A stretch of DNA of 64,000 nucleotides from Hyphomicrobiales bacterium. GTDB lineage: Bacteria; Pseudomonadota; Alphaproteobacteria; Rhizobiales; Rhizobiaceae. Below, piece after piece: positions 56,677 through 63,599 of this stretch. The position numbers were made by a program, and so were the translations under genes. Numbering within the stretch: the stretch's first letter is position 1; each line of letters opens with the position of its first letter. The notes under the pieces were generated by a model. The model worked only from the letters and a program-made list of their open reading frames with translations, made no database searches and had not been told where the DNA came from. Location: contig UBYA01000007.1 in NCBI GenBank assembly GCA_900469615.1, positions 1 to 64,000 on the forward strand. Reading direction: 5' to 3'.

Positions 56677-57736
56677 GCTCCGCACTCCCGTCTTTCTTTT
56701 CCCTGGCTCCTGACCGCTTCGCGATCTCCGCCGATTCCCTTAGAAAATCCCACAGCGGCCGCGCTGGGAGACCCGCGTAGCGCTCGCCTGCGGGAATACT
56801 GTTCATCACGCCGCTCTTGGCGCCGATCTGAACCCCGTCGCCGATGTGGATATGCCCGTTGAGCCCAGCCTGACCGCCGATCTGCACGCCATCGCCGATC
56901 ACCGTGCTACCGGCGATGCCGACCTGGCTGACAATAGCACAATGCCGACCGATCCGGACGTTATGTCCGATCTGTACCTGATTGTCGATCTTGGTGCCTT
57001 CGCCGATCACGGTGTCGTCCATGGTGCCGCGATCGATCGTCGTATTGGCGCCGATCTCGACATTGTCCTGAATGATGACACGGCCGATCTGCACGATTTT
57101 TACCATGCCGCGCGGGCCCGGTGCGTATCCGAAACCGTCCTGCCCGATGCGCGCGCCATTGTGGATGATAACGCCGTTGCCGAGATAGGCGCAGAGCACG
57201 CTCGCTCCACCACCGATGCTGCAATTGCGACCGATCTTCACGCCCGGCCCGATCAGGGCATTGGCACCGATATACGTCCCTTCGCCGATCTCGGCGCCTG
57301 CACCGATGACGGCGCCAGGCTCGACGCCGATATTGGCCTCCAGCTTCGCTGTCGCATCGATCGTCGCGGCGGGTGAGATCGTTGCCGGGGCCGATGTGAA
57401 CACGACCGGCCGCATGGCCTCCGGATGCAGCAACCCGCCGGCAATGGCAAAATCCGTATGCGGTTTCCTGGAAAGAAGCACCGGGATATGCGCGGGAACG
57501 AAAGATTTCAGCGCCGGCAAGCAAATGATGGCAGAAGCCTTGCAGGTTTCCAGCTCACCGCGATTCTTTCGGGAGAGGATATAGCAAATATCACCCTCGC
57601 CCGCCCGATAAACGGGGGCGATTGATCTGATGACGACCTCCGAAGAGGCCGTATCAGCCAGTTCCGCCCCAAGATATTCCGCCAGCTGCTTCAAGCTGAC
57701 GCCACCATGGGACGGGAAAAAACGTGTATGATCCAT
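56669..57736 (-). CDS. lpxD: UDP-3-O-(3-hydroxyacyl)glucosamine N-acyltransferase
   Basis: This 355-residue protein has an N-terminal uridine-binding domain (residues 1-105) and then a left-handed beta-helix of hexapeptide repeats ([34 protein letters not shown]), with the catalytic His in [20 protein letters not shown]. Adds the second acyl chain in lipid A synthesis. It follows bamA by 53 bases on the same strand. Confidence 0.96.
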
Positions 57737-57789
57737 ATAAGCACCAGCTCCAGAACGGTGTTCAAGCCCGCAGTTCTGGACTGCCGATA

Positions 57790-60123
57790 TCAGAACTGGT
57801 TGGCGATGCCAAACCGGAAATTCTCAACCTTGTCGTAGTCTTCCTTGAGAACCGGTACGGCATAGTCGACACGGATGACACCGAACGGCGACGACCAGAT
57901 CAGACCTGCACCAAGCGAGGCGCGGATCGAGTTGTCGTTGTGAAGCGTATCGCCGAAGAGATTCGCCTTGTTGCCGTAGAGCGAGCCAGCATCCGCAAAG
58001 GCTGCGATGCGCAGACCGATATCCTGCGGAACACCCGGCATTGGCATGCTCGCTTCAGCCGAAGCGGTGAAGTAGGTCGTGCCACCGAGCGGATCGCCAT
58101 GCGACGAACGCGGTCCGATACCGGCATTCTCGAAGCCGCGGATTTCACGGCCACCGAGCGTGAACTGATCGAAGACGTTCAGCTTTCCGTCTGTCGGCAT
58201 CACATAACCGGCACCGACCGTCAGCGAGCCGATGATATCGGCTTCGTCACTGATCATCTGATAGTAACGAGCCTTACCGCTCAGCTTGTAGAAGTCGGAA
58301 TCGCCGCCGAGACCGGCATATTCATGCGTGAACTTGGCGATGATACCTTCACGCGGCAGATTCTGGTCATCCAGCGTGTTGTAGGTGAAGGTCTGCGAAA
58401 CCGTCGACTGAACCCAGGGGCCGTTCTCGACGAGATTGAGGTACGGGGCCGACAGGTGATCCTGCCAGTCGTTCGTGCCGTCGTAAGTCAGGCGCTTGTA
58501 GTTATAGCGCAGGGTCGTCGCAAAATTCTCGGTGATCGGCGCAGTCACGCGCAGCGAGAAGCCTTCTTCCGAATAGTCGTAGTAATCGTCGCTCGACGTC
58601 TGGTTCTTGAAGATATCGAAACCGGCAGCCAGGCGATAGCCAAGGAAGTAGGGTTCGGTGAACGAGATGTTGTAGGTACGATTACCTTCAGTACCGGCAC
58701 CAGCCGCGACGCGGATGTACTGACCGCGACCGAGGAAGTTCTTTTCCTCGACCGAAGCTTCCAGCAGCAGGCCGCCGTTGTTGCCGACGGCGTAACCCGC
58801 ACCGATACCGAACGAGCCGGTCGGCTGGTCTTCGACGTTGACGATAACAACCACGCGATCCGGAGCGCTGCCCTGAGCCGTCGTGATGTCGACCTTGGTG
58901 AAGTAGCCGAGAGCGTCGAGGCGGCGCTTGGCGCGCGTGATCATTTCCTGGTTGAAGGCATCGCCTTCATTGAGGTCGAACTCGCGGCGGATGACGTAAT
59001 CGCGCGTACGGGTGTTGCCACGGATCTCGATGCGCTCGACATAGGCACGCTCGCCCTGGTCGACCAGATACTCGATACCGATGGTGTGTCCGGACAGATC
59101 GCGGTTGCCGCGCGGCGTGATACGGGCGAACGGATAGCCCGCGGATGCCACGCGCTTGGAAATGTTCTCGATCGAGGTCTGGATGTCCTTGGCGCTGTAG
59201 ACATCGCCCTTGTGGGTGATGACCAGGCCCTTCAGCTCATCGGCGTTGACACCATCTACCGTCGAAATGACGTTGATGTCGCCGTAGGTGTAACGCGGAC
59301 CTTCGTCGACATTGAAGTTCAGCGTGTATTCGTTGTTCTGCTCGTTCAGCGTCGCGTCGGCGCTGACGATGCGGAAGTCGGCATAGCCGTGATTGTAGTA
59401 GAACTGGCGCAGCGCATCCTGGTCGGCCTGCTGACGCTCAGGGCTGTAGACGTCCTTACGGGTCAGGAACGACAGGAAGTTGCTCTTCTTGGTGCTGATG
59501 ACCGAAGCAAGGCGACCGCTGCCGTAGGCCTGATTGCCCGAGAAATTGATTTTATCGATCTTGGTACGATCGCCCTCGTTGATGACGAAAGCCACGTTGA
59601 GGCGACCCGGGGAAACCTCGGCGGTCTGCGTCGTCACCTGCACGTCGTTGCGGCCGATGGTGGCGTAGGCATCCTTGATGGTCTTGATGTCAGCCTGAAC
59701 GGTCGCCTCATTGTACGGCCCGGCCGAATGAGTCTGGACGATGCCCTGAAGCTTGTCGTCCTTGATCTTGCGGTTGCCATTGAAGACAACGGCATTGATC
59801 AGCTTGTTTTCCTTGACCGATATGATCAGGGAGCTGCCGGCAACGGTGATATGGACGTCGGAGAAATATCCGGTCGCATAAAGTTGCTTTACCGAAGCAT
59901 CGATGTCACCGGCAGAGAAGCTCTTACCGGGTTTGATCGTGATATTGTCACGAACAGCCGCCTCACCGACGCGTTCAGCACCACGAACGTCAACCCGCTG
60001 AATGACAGCTGCTTCCGCGACTGAAGCAGAGGCAAGTGTGAGAACACCAGCGCCCGACGCAACAACACCAGCAGACAGCGCTACCGCCGACACTGCGTTC
60101 AAAAATTTTGAACCAGCCTTCAT
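57790..60123 (-). CDS. bamA: Outer membrane protein assembly factor BamA
   Basis: This 777-residue Omp85 protein has a signal peptide (about residues 1-38, ending SVAEAAV), five POTRA domains (about 40-430; first [20 protein letters not shown]) and a 16-stranded barrel ending [10 protein letters not shown] with terminal phenylalanine. The surface-loop motif VRGF appears as [12 protein letters not shown]. It folds and inserts outer membrane proteins. It lies between rseP and lpxD, as in most proteobacteria; the 198 bases upstream to rseP may hold an extra promoter. Confidence 0.97.
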
Positions 60124-60321: not shown

Positions 60322-61995
60322 CTAGCCTATTCGGGAACTAATATCGTTCCACGTCGCAAACACCATGAGCGAGAGCACCATCGCAAATCCAATCCGGAAA
60401 GCGATATCCTGTGCCCGTGCACCCAGAGGTTTTCCCCTTACGGCTTCAATCGCATAGAACATCAGATGCCCGCCATCAAGTACCGGCACGGGCATCAAAT
60501 TTAATAACCCTATTGAAACAGAAAGTATGGCGGCGAATTGCAACACGGCGGCAAAACCCAGAGTTGCCATCTGACCCGACAGCTGCGCAACCCGAATGGG
60601 GCCGCCGAGCTGATCGGCTTTCATGTAGCCGCCGATGACATTGCCGATATATTCGAAGGTGCCGGAAACGATGCTGGCGGTCTGCTTCACGCCTTCGGAC
60701 AGCGCCTGTAGCGGCCCATATGCCTCGTAGCGCAGCCTGATCGGCTTCTGACCATCGGTGATGCCGATGGTGGCGATCTCCGTCCGGGCGCCGAAAGCAT
60801 CGGTCTCTTCCGATTTCCTCGGCGTGACCGTTACCTCACGCGTCTGGCCATCGCGCTTGACCGTCATCGTCATGGGCTTGTCGGCGTGAGCCGCTGCGGA
60901 GCGCTGCACTTCACCAATGGAGCCGATTTCCCGTCCATCCACAGAAAGAATGCGATCACCGACTTCAAGACCCGCCGCCTGGGCCGGGCTGTCGGAGGCG
61001 ATCGATGCCACCAGCGGATCGATCGGCGCAATGCCGATGCTGCCGACATCCTTCTTGTCACCGGACGCGGCCGTATCGACCAGTGTATCGGTCATCATCG
61101 GAAAATCGCGGATTGCACCGCTGCGCTGTATGGTGAGCACGATGTTCTTGCCGGGGTGCTCGGACACGTAGCGGCCAATATCGTAATAGGTTGCGACATT
61201 GTTGCCGTCGACCGCGATCAGGCGATCCCCCGCCAGCACGCCGGCCTTTGCCGCCGGTCCGGCCGGCTCCACCGCAGTGACGACCGGATCGACCAAAGCG
61301 ATGCCGATGCGACCCATCTCCATCTTGTTGCCGAATTGATCGGTGTCTTCCACCAGCTTCGGGACGATCCGGAAGTCGCGGTTCTGGCCGTCGCGCTCGA
61401 CGGTCAGCACGATCGTACGGCCAGGGCGCAGGCCGACATAGCGCTGCACCTCATCGAAGGTGGCCACCTTGGCGCCGTCGATGGCAACAAGGCGATCGCC
61501 CGGTTCGATTCCGGCTTCCGCCGCCGCGCCGTCACGCGTCACCATGGCAACGACAGGATCGGCGACCGTGCGGCCATAGATGCCGAAAAGTACCGCGAAG
61601 ATCACGATGGCAAGAAGGAAATTCGCAATCGGACCGGCGGCAACCGTCGCGGCCCGTTTCCAGAGCCTGGCGCCGGCAAAGGAATGAGCGCGCTCTTCCT
61701 CCGTCATGGCTGCAAGCTGATCCACGTCGGTCTTGCTGGAGGCATCCTCGTCGCCGAAGAAGCGCACGTAACCGCCGAGCGGAATCAGCGAAAGCTTCCA
61801 GCGCGTGCCATGTCGGTCCGTGAAGCCGGCAATTTCCGGCCCGAAGCCGATCGAGAAGGCCATGACGCGGATACCCGACCAGCGGCCGACCAGATAGTGG
61901 CCCATCTCGTGCACGAAAACGAGCAACGACAGGACGAAGACAAACGTAATGACGTTGTTCGTCAAGAAACCGATCAAGCTAGCCGCGCTACCCAT
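60322..61995 (-). CDS. rseP: Site-2 protease RseP with three tandem PDZ domains
   Basis: This inner-membrane zinc protease cuts transmembrane anti-sigma factors and signal peptide remnants. Zinc motif VFVHEMGHYLVGR (His29, Glu30, His33), GGYVRFFGD, and the third ligand in NLMPVPVLDGGHLMF (Asp507). At 557 residues it is about 180 longer than the usual alphaproteobacterial enzyme. The extra length is two additional PDZ domains: units start at Asp146, Asp236 and Asp326 (DPVVAMV, DPVVTAV, DPLVASI) and end with IGI at residues 230-232, 320-322 and 410-412, an exact 90-residue period. It lies between cdsA and bamA. Confidence 0.95.
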   Translation of the reverse strand: MGSAASLIGFLTNNVITFVFVLSLLVFVHEMGHYLVGRWSGIRVMAFSIGFGPEIAGFTDRHGTRWKLSLIPLGGYVRFFGDEDASSKTDVDQLAAMTEEERAHSFAGARLWKRAATVAAGPIANFLLAIVIFAVLFGIYGRTVADPVVAMVTRDGAAAEAGIEPGDRLVAIDGAKVATFDEVQRYVGLRPGRTIVLTVERDGQNRDFRIVPKLVEDTDQFGNKMEMGRIGIALVDPVVTAVEPAGPAAKAGVLAGDRLIAVDGNNVATYYDIGRYVSEHPGKNIVLTIQRSGAIRDFPMMTDTLVDTAASGDKKDVGSIGIAPIDPLVASIASDSPAQAAGLEVGDRILSVDGREIGSIGEVQRSAAAHADKPMTMTVKRDGQTREVTVTPRKSEETDAFGARTEIATIGITDGQKPIRLRYEAYGPLQALSEGVKQTASIVSGTFEYIGNVIGGYMKADQLGGPIRVAQLSGQMATLGFAAVLQFAAILSVSIGLLNLMPVPVLDGGHLMFYAIEAVRGKPLGARAQDIAFRIGFAMVLSLMVFATWNDISSRIG

Positions 61996-62019
61996 GCAAC
62001 GATCCTGTTCGTGTTAATT

Positions 62020-62853
62020 TCAGACCCCGAGCAGAACGCCGCCCAATGAAAAGGTCTCGCCGCTCATTGTCAGCGACATTACGATAGCCAACAAAAACGC
62101 TGCAAAACAAGCAAAAATTAGTCCATCGACGCGATCCATGACCCCGCCATGGCCGGGAATGAGATGGCTGGAGTCCTTTACGCCGAACTTGCGCTTGATG
62201 AATGACTCGAACAGATCGCCGCTCTGGCTGCAGACGGAAAGCACCAGGGCAAGGACGGGAATCCTCAAATCCTCGGCGGAAAAAAAGCTCCAGACGACCG
62301 CGGTTCCGGCAAGGACGGCCGCGATGGCGCCGCCGATCGCGCCCGACCATGTCTTGCCCGGCGATATACGCGGGGCAAGCTTCGGCCCTCCGATGGCTCG
62401 GCCGACGAAATAGGCGAAAATATCCGTCGCCCACACCGTCGCGAAAACGAACAGCATCAGCACGAAGCCGCGCAGGTCGTCGTCCCGCATCTCTGCAAGG
62501 GCAATCACCGTCAATCCGGAATAGAATATGCCACCCGGCAGCCACCAGCTTTTGCCGCGAATGCCGACCATGATCGCCGTGACGGCGACGAAGGCGGCCA
62601 GAACCTCGATGGAATAGACGGATTCGCCCAGGACCGTCGCGCCGGCGATCAGCACGAGCGCAAGCCAGCCGAGGGCGTTGCCCTGCGGGTCGCGGCCATG
62701 CAAATCCGTTATCGTCGACCATTCATAGTAGACGAGCAGGCCGATTACCGACGCCAGAAGGCGAAAGCCGAGACCTCCGAACCAGGTGGCGGCAAGAACG
62801 ACGACGGCAAGGATGATGCCTGAAACAATGCGCAGCCTGAGTTCGCGATTCAT
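62020..62853 (-). CDS. cdsA: Phosphatidate cytidylyltransferase
   Basis: This 277-residue membrane enzyme makes CDP-diacylglycerol, the precursor of phospholipids including the phosphatidylcholine made by Pcs. The family signature is SQSGDLFESFIKRKFGVKDS followed by GHGGVMDRVDGLIF; PGKTWSGAIGG lies before it. ATG 62853 shares a base with the uppS stop (TGATG). A longer frame upstream runs inside uppS. Confidence 0.95.
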   Translation of the reverse strand: MNRELRLRIVSGIILAVVVLAATWFGGLGFRLLASVIGLLVYYEWSTITDLHGRDPQGNALGWLALVLIAGATVLGESVYSIEVLAAFVAVTAIMVGIRGKSWWLPGGIFYSGLTVIALAEMRDDDLRGFVLMLFVFATVWATDIFAYFVGRAIGGPKLAPRISPGKTWSGAIGGAIAAVLAGTAVVWSFFSAEDLRIPVLALVLSVCSQSGDLFESFIKRKFGVKDSSHLIPGHGGVMDRVDGLIFACFAAFLLAIVMSLTMSGETFSLGGVLLGV

Positions 62854-63599
62854 CAGGACCCCACGGCCGCCGCCTGCTTGGCGGAAAGACCGCCAAAACG
62901 CCGGTCGCGCGCAGCATATTTCTCCAGCGCGGCGAAGAACAGATCGCGATTGAAATCCGGCCAGTAGTCCGGCACGAACATGAATTCCGAATAGGCCGCC
63001 TGCCACAGCAGGAAATTCGAGAGCCGCTCCTCGCCGCTCGTGCGGATAATGAGGTCGGGATCGGGAATTCCGGCGGTGTCCAAACGGGCATCGACCAGTT
63101 CCGGACTGATATCCTGCGGACGCAACCGCCCGGCCTCGACATCCTTTGCGAGGCTTATGAAGGCACGCGTGATCTCGTCGCGCGAGCCGTAGTTGAAGGC
63201 GATGACCAGCGTCAGGGCCGTATTGTTCCTGGTGGTCTCCTCCGCCTCGAGCAGCAGGGGCAGGATGTCACCGCGCAGGCCACCGCGATCGCCGATGACG
63301 CGAATCCGGACATTCTGCCGGTGAAGCTCGGCAAGATCCCGCCGGATGAAGGCCTTAAGGAGGCCGAGGAGATCGCTCACCTCCGCCTCGGGACGGCGCC
63401 AGTTCTCCGAGGAGAAGGCGAAAAGCGTCAGATATTTGATGCCGATATCGCCGGCAGCCCTCACCGTCTCGCGAACGGCCTCCACGCCCTTGCGGTGGCC
63501 CATGGTGCGCGGCAGGCCGCGCGCATTGGCCCAGCGACCGTTGCCATCCATGATGATGGCAACGTGTTCGGGTACGACAGAGAACGTAGGAGCTGACAT
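62853..63599 (-). CDS. uppS: Isoprenyl transferase (undecaprenyl diphosphate synthase)
   Basis: This 248-residue cis-prenyltransferase makes the C55 lipid carrier for peptidoglycan and LPS. It has [20 protein letters not shown] with the catalytic Asp, [26 protein letters not shown] and the C-terminal [19 protein letters not shown]. It follows frr by 108 bases; its end is coupled to cdsA. Confidence 0.96.

Follow-up and report, generated by a model that had tools for sequence, protein, structure and literature searches.

The rseP gene in the 64,000-nucleotide stretch of Rhizobiaceae DNA analyzed here (the window) encodes a site-2 protease with three tandem PDZ units in a periplasmic insert between its second and third transmembrane segments (TM2 and TM3). 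This tripling is real, old, and common to many species of one Rhizobium branch. The amplification from one to three units most likely took place once, in situ, before the clade diversified, with vertical inheritance and no later exchange between units. Coordinates of the features discussed are collected in Table 1.

Table 1. Features of the rseP locus, in window coordinates
Feature	Position	Strand	Evidence
rseP, site-2 (M50B) intramembrane metalloprotease, 557 aa	60322..61995	-	ORF list, Pfam, TIGR00054, structure match
HExxH zinc motif (HEMGH), residues 29-33	61897..61911	-	Sequence and alignment
PDZ unit 1, residues 146-235, most conserved unit	61291..61560	-	Repeat register, Pfam, trees, dN/dS
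PDZ unit 2, residues 236-325	61021..61290	-	Repeat register, Pfam, trees, dN/dS
PDZ unit 3, residues 326-415, most diverged unit	60751..61020	-	Repeat register, Pfam, trees, dN/dS
LDGGH motif, second active-site motif, residues 506-510	60466..60480	-	Sequence and alignment
bamA, downstream neighbor, species-tree control	57790..60123	-	ORF list
cdsA ORF, upstream neighbor, species-tree control	62020..63006	-	ORF list, GTG start

The identification as RseP made in the initial annotation was borne out by a TIGR00054 score of 353.8 bits (cut-off 147.55), and Pfam Peptidase_M50 scored 239.2 bits (cut-off 27.2). Both active-site motifs of the family, HExxH and LDG, are present, with H29, E30, H33, and L506-H510 invariant across 48 aligned proteins; the Asp of LDGGH is presumably a zinc ligand. 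The window protein is RseP, though outside the E. coli-type equivalog NF008046/PRK10779, against which it scores 329.1 bits, below the cut-off of 477. The neighboring genes, taken to be bamA (downstream) and cdsA (upstream), both accompany rseP in 101 of the 101 loci searched. The listed GTG start of cdsA is probably wrong, with the true start lying about 50 codons further in. Antisense to bamA and rseP run two open frames on the forward strand (57724-60024, 766 aa, and 60886-62049, 387 aa), probably by-products of GC-rich codon usage.

The repeat register is unambiguous. Units opening with DPVV, DPVV, and DPLV at residues 146, 236, and 326 carry IGI at residues 230, 320, and 410, exactly as first annotated, and the proposed 90-residue period is likewise exact: an offset of 90 yields 69 identities over 180 positions, against 13.2 +/- 3.5 (maximum 26) in 5000 shuffles, with the remaining offsets between 80 and 100 giving 7-18 each. 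While the count of three units therefore stands, the interval first assigned to them (60760-61563) corresponds to residues 145-412, whereas the units occupy residues 146-415. Removal of two units leaves 377 residues (557 - 180), in agreement with the earlier figure. Pfam reports M50 plus three PDZ_6/PDZ_2 stretches, in keeping with a family of variable PDZ number, and each unit searched alone matches PDZ_6 above the curated cut-off (E of 2e-12 or better). Pairwise identities in the window protein are 48, 39, and 29% at the amino acid level and about 61, 58, and 52% at the nucleotide level for units 1-2, 1-3, and 2-3, respectively. Because the units are so diverged, a tandem-repeat finder (TRF) reported no array at the PDZ region.

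Mapping of the units onto a structure prediction, as the initial annotation had proposed, displayed one strand-helix pattern three times. AlphaFold, run on the 557-residue protein with the 48 aligned sequences, returned a mean pLDDT of 76.1 and a pTM of 0.64, with ten-residue block means of 68-93, mostly 79 or more, across the three units; the three-unit fragment gave a pLDDT of 80.3 and a pTM of 0.65. The best match among solved structures was E. coli RseP (7w6x; Z 30.1, rmsd 9.0, 424 aligned residues), followed by other RseP-family entries, and single-PDZ chains from RseP and MucP matched at Z 11.5-15.4 and rmsd 1.4-2.7. Domain order is clear in the model, relative packing is not, given these pTM values and the rmsd of 9.0 to 7w6x. 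Like the window protein, E. coli RseP, a group I site-2 protease, combines a membrane protease core bearing HExxH and LDGGH with a PDZ insert between TM2 and TM3. The insert of the E. coli protein, which belongs to a different class of bacteria, contains two PDZ domains instead of three and aligns with window units 1 and 2.

The IGI triplet, which we take to be the PDZ ligand-binding loop, occurs unchanged in units 1, 2, and 3 of 40, 38, and 37, respectively, of the 40 distinct three-unit sequences, the exceptions being VGI, IGV, and IGM. In unit 2 it aligns with VGI of E. coli RseP at chain positions 302-304 (assuming numbering from Met1), so that window I322 corresponds to residue 304, the isoleucine mutated in PDB 3id3. 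Since the triplet is kept in all three units, each looks able to bind peptide. Unit 3 has lost the GD pair in 2 of the 40 sequences and the DG pair in 2.

Across the genus Rhizobium, the three-unit form was found in 41 of 148 genomes and the one-unit form in the other 107, with no two-unit intermediate among the 148. Thirty-nine of the 41 match residues 1-557, one (G100) matches residues 1-522, and one (G003) is split over two contig ends; the 107 one-unit genomes have rseP frames of 302-402 residues, insufficient for two units. Among the named holders of the three-unit form are R. tropici, R. rhizogenes, R. freirei, R. mayense, and R. calliandrae, and by this kinship the window probably derives from a Rhizobium of their group. 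Twelve complete titled genome records show the same architecture; this set overlaps the 148, with L056 and L138, for example, both on contigs of 1,597,374 bases. The span between HExxH and DGGH provides a second view of the same division. From 150 loci, 6 of which lacked a complete frame, 144 were measured: the span is 478 residues in 52 and 298 in 86 (40 and 85 distinct genes, respectively, as some were fetched twice), a difference of exactly 180 residues, and none has the 388 expected of two units. The only larger spans apart from 478 are 384 and 412, both two-PDZ forms from other families, and a span of 317 (L142) is a one-PDZ form. A span of 351 at L133 (G310) was produced by a chance upstream HExxH, the actual value being 298. 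Long frames suggestive of multiple PDZs in G351, G181, G310, G352, G395, G367, G405, G277, G1146, and G741 proved to have spans of 297-298, that is, one PDZ plus an upstream in-frame extension.

No full-length three-unit match was retrieved outside the genus from 394 family genomes (E up to 1e-118), 397 order genomes (E up to 1e-78), or 398 Pseudomonadota genomes (E up to 1e-62), samples that overlap, include genus members, and were searched at thresholds that could miss a very diverged three-unit case. The family and order searches targeted full-length three-unit matches, in which two-unit forms would not show. In the class sample, at least 16 of 190 genomes have a contiguous two-PDZ-type match; of the 15 fetched (all listed except G486), two PDZ hits were obtained in 11 and a single hit in three, with no frame recovered from the last. 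RsePs of other alphaproteobacterial families (L144, L145, L167-L173, L178, L179) belong to the same protein family and carry two PDZs in tandem, and the earlier statement that alphaproteobacterial RseP typically has one PDZ applies to the Rhizobiaceae relatives examined and not universally to the class. Those relatives, among them other Rhizobium, Agrobacterium, Neorhizobium, and Shinella, have the same gene with a single unit.

The initial annotation had inferred a lineage-specific, in-frame amplification, and the spans of 298 and 478, which are exactly two units apart, together with the unit and RseP trees, agree with it. The event is neither private to this genome nor recent, as its presence in 41 genomes of the genus attests. 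The same annotation had allowed that the feature would be old and ordinary if all close relatives had three units, which is true inside the three-unit clade and false outside it. It had also raised an assembly artifact; this is excluded for practical purposes, the chance of an assembly or sequencing error being negligible, as the architecture recurs in the 41 genus genomes and in the complete titled records, and units this different in sequence could not have arisen by mis-assembly of one another.

Phylogenetic analysis places the gain at the base of one clade. In a tree of individual units (21 of the 40 three-unit proteins, hence 63 units, plus 43 of the 85 single sequences), the 63 units fall on one side of a branch and the 43 single PDZs on the other, with support of 100/95; units 2 and 3 each form a starred clade and unit 1 a clade at 83/92. 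When the PDZs are removed, the three-unit proteins still form one clade in the tree of catalytic parts (SH-aLRT 100; 40 three-unit and 85 single sequences), and the 85 distinct single-unit proteins all lie outside it. This tree holds all 125 distinct sequences, with the frameshifted C-terminus of L134 trimmed, and covers part of the 107 single-unit genomes; G003 is in no tree. The species-tree controls concur, as three-unit loci form one clade in the BamA and CdsA trees (SH-aLRT 99 and 91), which were built from the 101 of 125 loci longer than 4500 bases (35 three-unit, 66 single). The separation of the units from single PDZs, taken with the single clade in the RseP, CdsA, and BamA trees, makes a single in-situ gain the most likely history. 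A source for the additional units in some other PDZ protein, such as HtrA, is disfavored by the unit tree of RseP PDZs, in which the three units cluster as one clade beside the single PDZs. Each unit is also a single clade across species, and no ongoing gene conversion between units was seen in the unit tree.

Addition of two-PDZ proteins from other families leaves the three-unit clade at only 85/81, and it then takes in one very long-branched unit (L179 d2); apart from this unit, the PDZs of the two-PDZ proteins are separate from those of the window protein, and the two units of L144 pair with each other (87/93). Within the three-unit clade, units 2 and 3 group at 87/85, with the program warning of long branches meeting, and the 1+2 and 1+3 arrangements are not rejected (p-AU 0.258 and 0.381).

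Dating of the duplication by comparison of the three 270-base units, another suggestion of the initial annotation, was carried out and yielded no date. Codons for the same residue agree between units in 48-57% of cases, where codon usage by itself would lead one to expect 43%. With synonymous sites this close to saturation, DNA identity cannot date the gain, and phylogeny supplies a relative age. The same codon agreement and the lack of a TRF array rule out a recent, DNA-datable duplication.

All three units are under purifying selection. Within the clade, units 1, 2, and 3 average 90.9, 78.2, and 72.2% amino acid identity, compared with 94.9% for residues 1-145 and 94.3% for the C-terminal part, the latter a figure that retains the frameshifted C-terminus of L134. 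The corresponding dN/dS values are 0.035 for the N-terminal part, 0.057, 0.159, and 0.186 for the units, and 0.059 for the C-terminal part (309 of 780 pairs, with dS < 1 in every segment). Single-PDZ Rhizobium relatives, 28 of the 85 picked by hand and used for the identity, stem-branch, dN/dS, and motif comparisons, gave 0.071 for the N-terminal part, 0.164 for the PDZ, and 0.154 for the C-terminal part (221 of 378 pairs, same dS limit). Units 2 and 3, whose dN/dS is roughly threefold that of unit 1, accordingly show a constraint similar to that on a typical single PDZ, and the constraint on unit 1 is tighter.

Branch lengths suggest faster change along the stem of the three-unit clade, most clearly in unit 1. 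The stem accounts for 7.7% of tree length in unit 1 (0.857 of 11.2) and 3.5% in the joined membrane parts of RseP (2.5% for the N-terminal and 2.7% for the C-terminal part alone), against 1.7% in BamA and 1.1% in CdsA, a purely descriptive comparison of lengths with two control genes only, made with L124 dropped. In absolute terms, the stem lengths of the N-terminal (0.198) and C-terminal (0.257) parts are not far above those of BamA (0.169) and CdsA (0.168). A burst of change at the time of amplification is possible.

A single in-situ tripling in the R. tropici/R. rhizogenes group and its kin, leading to an enlarged periplasmic gate, is in our judgment the probable explanation, at moderate confidence. 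As distribution and trees show, the lone 90-residue PDZ unit between TM2 and TM3 was tandemly amplified to three in the clade ancestor, and the units then diverged, each being retained, on the evidence of dN/dS and motifs, under purifying selection as a PDZ of predicted intact fold. Unit 1 would hold the ancestral place beside TM2 and is the most strongly constrained, and units 2 and 3 would supply bulk and two further possible peptide-binding surfaces between the substrate and the membrane active site. Such a protease might discriminate more strictly, or differently, among the periplasmic ends of membrane substrates. By analogy with E. coli RseP, the three units would likely form a larger or more selective periplasmic gate, or a docking module, and the size-exclusion filter for substrates may be altered, as first proposed. 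In PMC7728848 and PMC10202637, the two PDZs of E. coli RseP are reported to block access of full-length RseA to the recessed active site; the size-exclusion idea comes from this E. coli protein, which is of another class and has two PDZs against three here. No substrate of the window protein was found in the literature searched. The higher dN/dS of units 2 and 3, together with the GD and DG losses in unit 3, also fits weaker functional demand on these units.

Alternatively, the individual PDZs might bind distinct C-termini or partners, with a site-1 protease, the tail of an outer-membrane protein, and an anti-sigma partner among the candidates, so that the array recruits or senses rather than excludes by size. 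Such an arrangement, which we consider possible though unlikely, is consistent with the near-universal retention of IGI, with a divergence between units (29-48% amino acid identity in the window) that is expected if their ligands differ, and with the extensive change of unit 1 itself on the stem; set against these points, a conserved loop does not prove binding. Similarly tentative is a more far-reaching proposal, that the tripling re-specialized RseP into a three-stage gate with three different peptide-binding sites and an altered choice of membrane proteins to cut in free-living or symbiotic cells, and that this coincided with a burst of change on the stem branch, affecting unit 1 and perhaps also the membrane part. 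More doubtful still is a nearly neutral amplification that became fixed, in which the extra units are tolerated spacers retained since in-frame loss is rare. The lower conservation of units 2 and 3 relative to unit 1 and the flanking parts agrees with this, as does the lack of any unit loss in the 41 genomes; yet, with units only 51-61% alike in DNA, recombinational loss would be rare anyway. Tolerated spacers are also at odds with the dN/dS of units 2 and 3 (0.16-0.19), which indicates genuine constraint, on a par with that seen for the single PDZ in relatives, and with motifs that are mostly kept and a fold predicted intact by AlphaFold. Gate enlargement following a single tripling remains the reading we prefer.

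Variable PDZ number among site-2 proteases is already published, as stated in PMC10202637 and PMC7728848, and the three-unit Rhizobium form adds a well-supported evolutionary event. Searches of the open-licence literature found no paper on a three-PDZ RseP or site-2 protease and none on rseP of Rhizobium tropici. The original source for the variable PDZ number is reportedly Kinch et al. (2006). In the papers examined, the contribution of each PDZ has so far been studied mainly through mutants of a two-PDZ protein. With exactly two PDZ units setting sister clades of one genus apart, in a protein otherwise colinear and at a shared locus, the genus offers a clean natural comparison, and a one- versus three-unit contrast of this kind suits the question of whether the PDZs act as a size filter or as a set of docking sites.

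Several rseP genes in the survey are irregular. In the three-unit gene of L134 (G100), homology ends near residue 522, and the frame, 563 residues in all, closes with a different C-terminus, reflecting either a sequencing frameshift or a genuine change. Two single-PDZ genes look broken across frames: that of L135 (G107) has an open frame of 302 residues, and that of L136 (G096) has its HExxH in a different frame from the remainder. Since the gene is conserved elsewhere, both cases may stem from sequence errors. Among the matches listed for 247 family genomes, the RseP matches in G299, G198, and G368 were each flagged with one internal stop (TAA or TAG).
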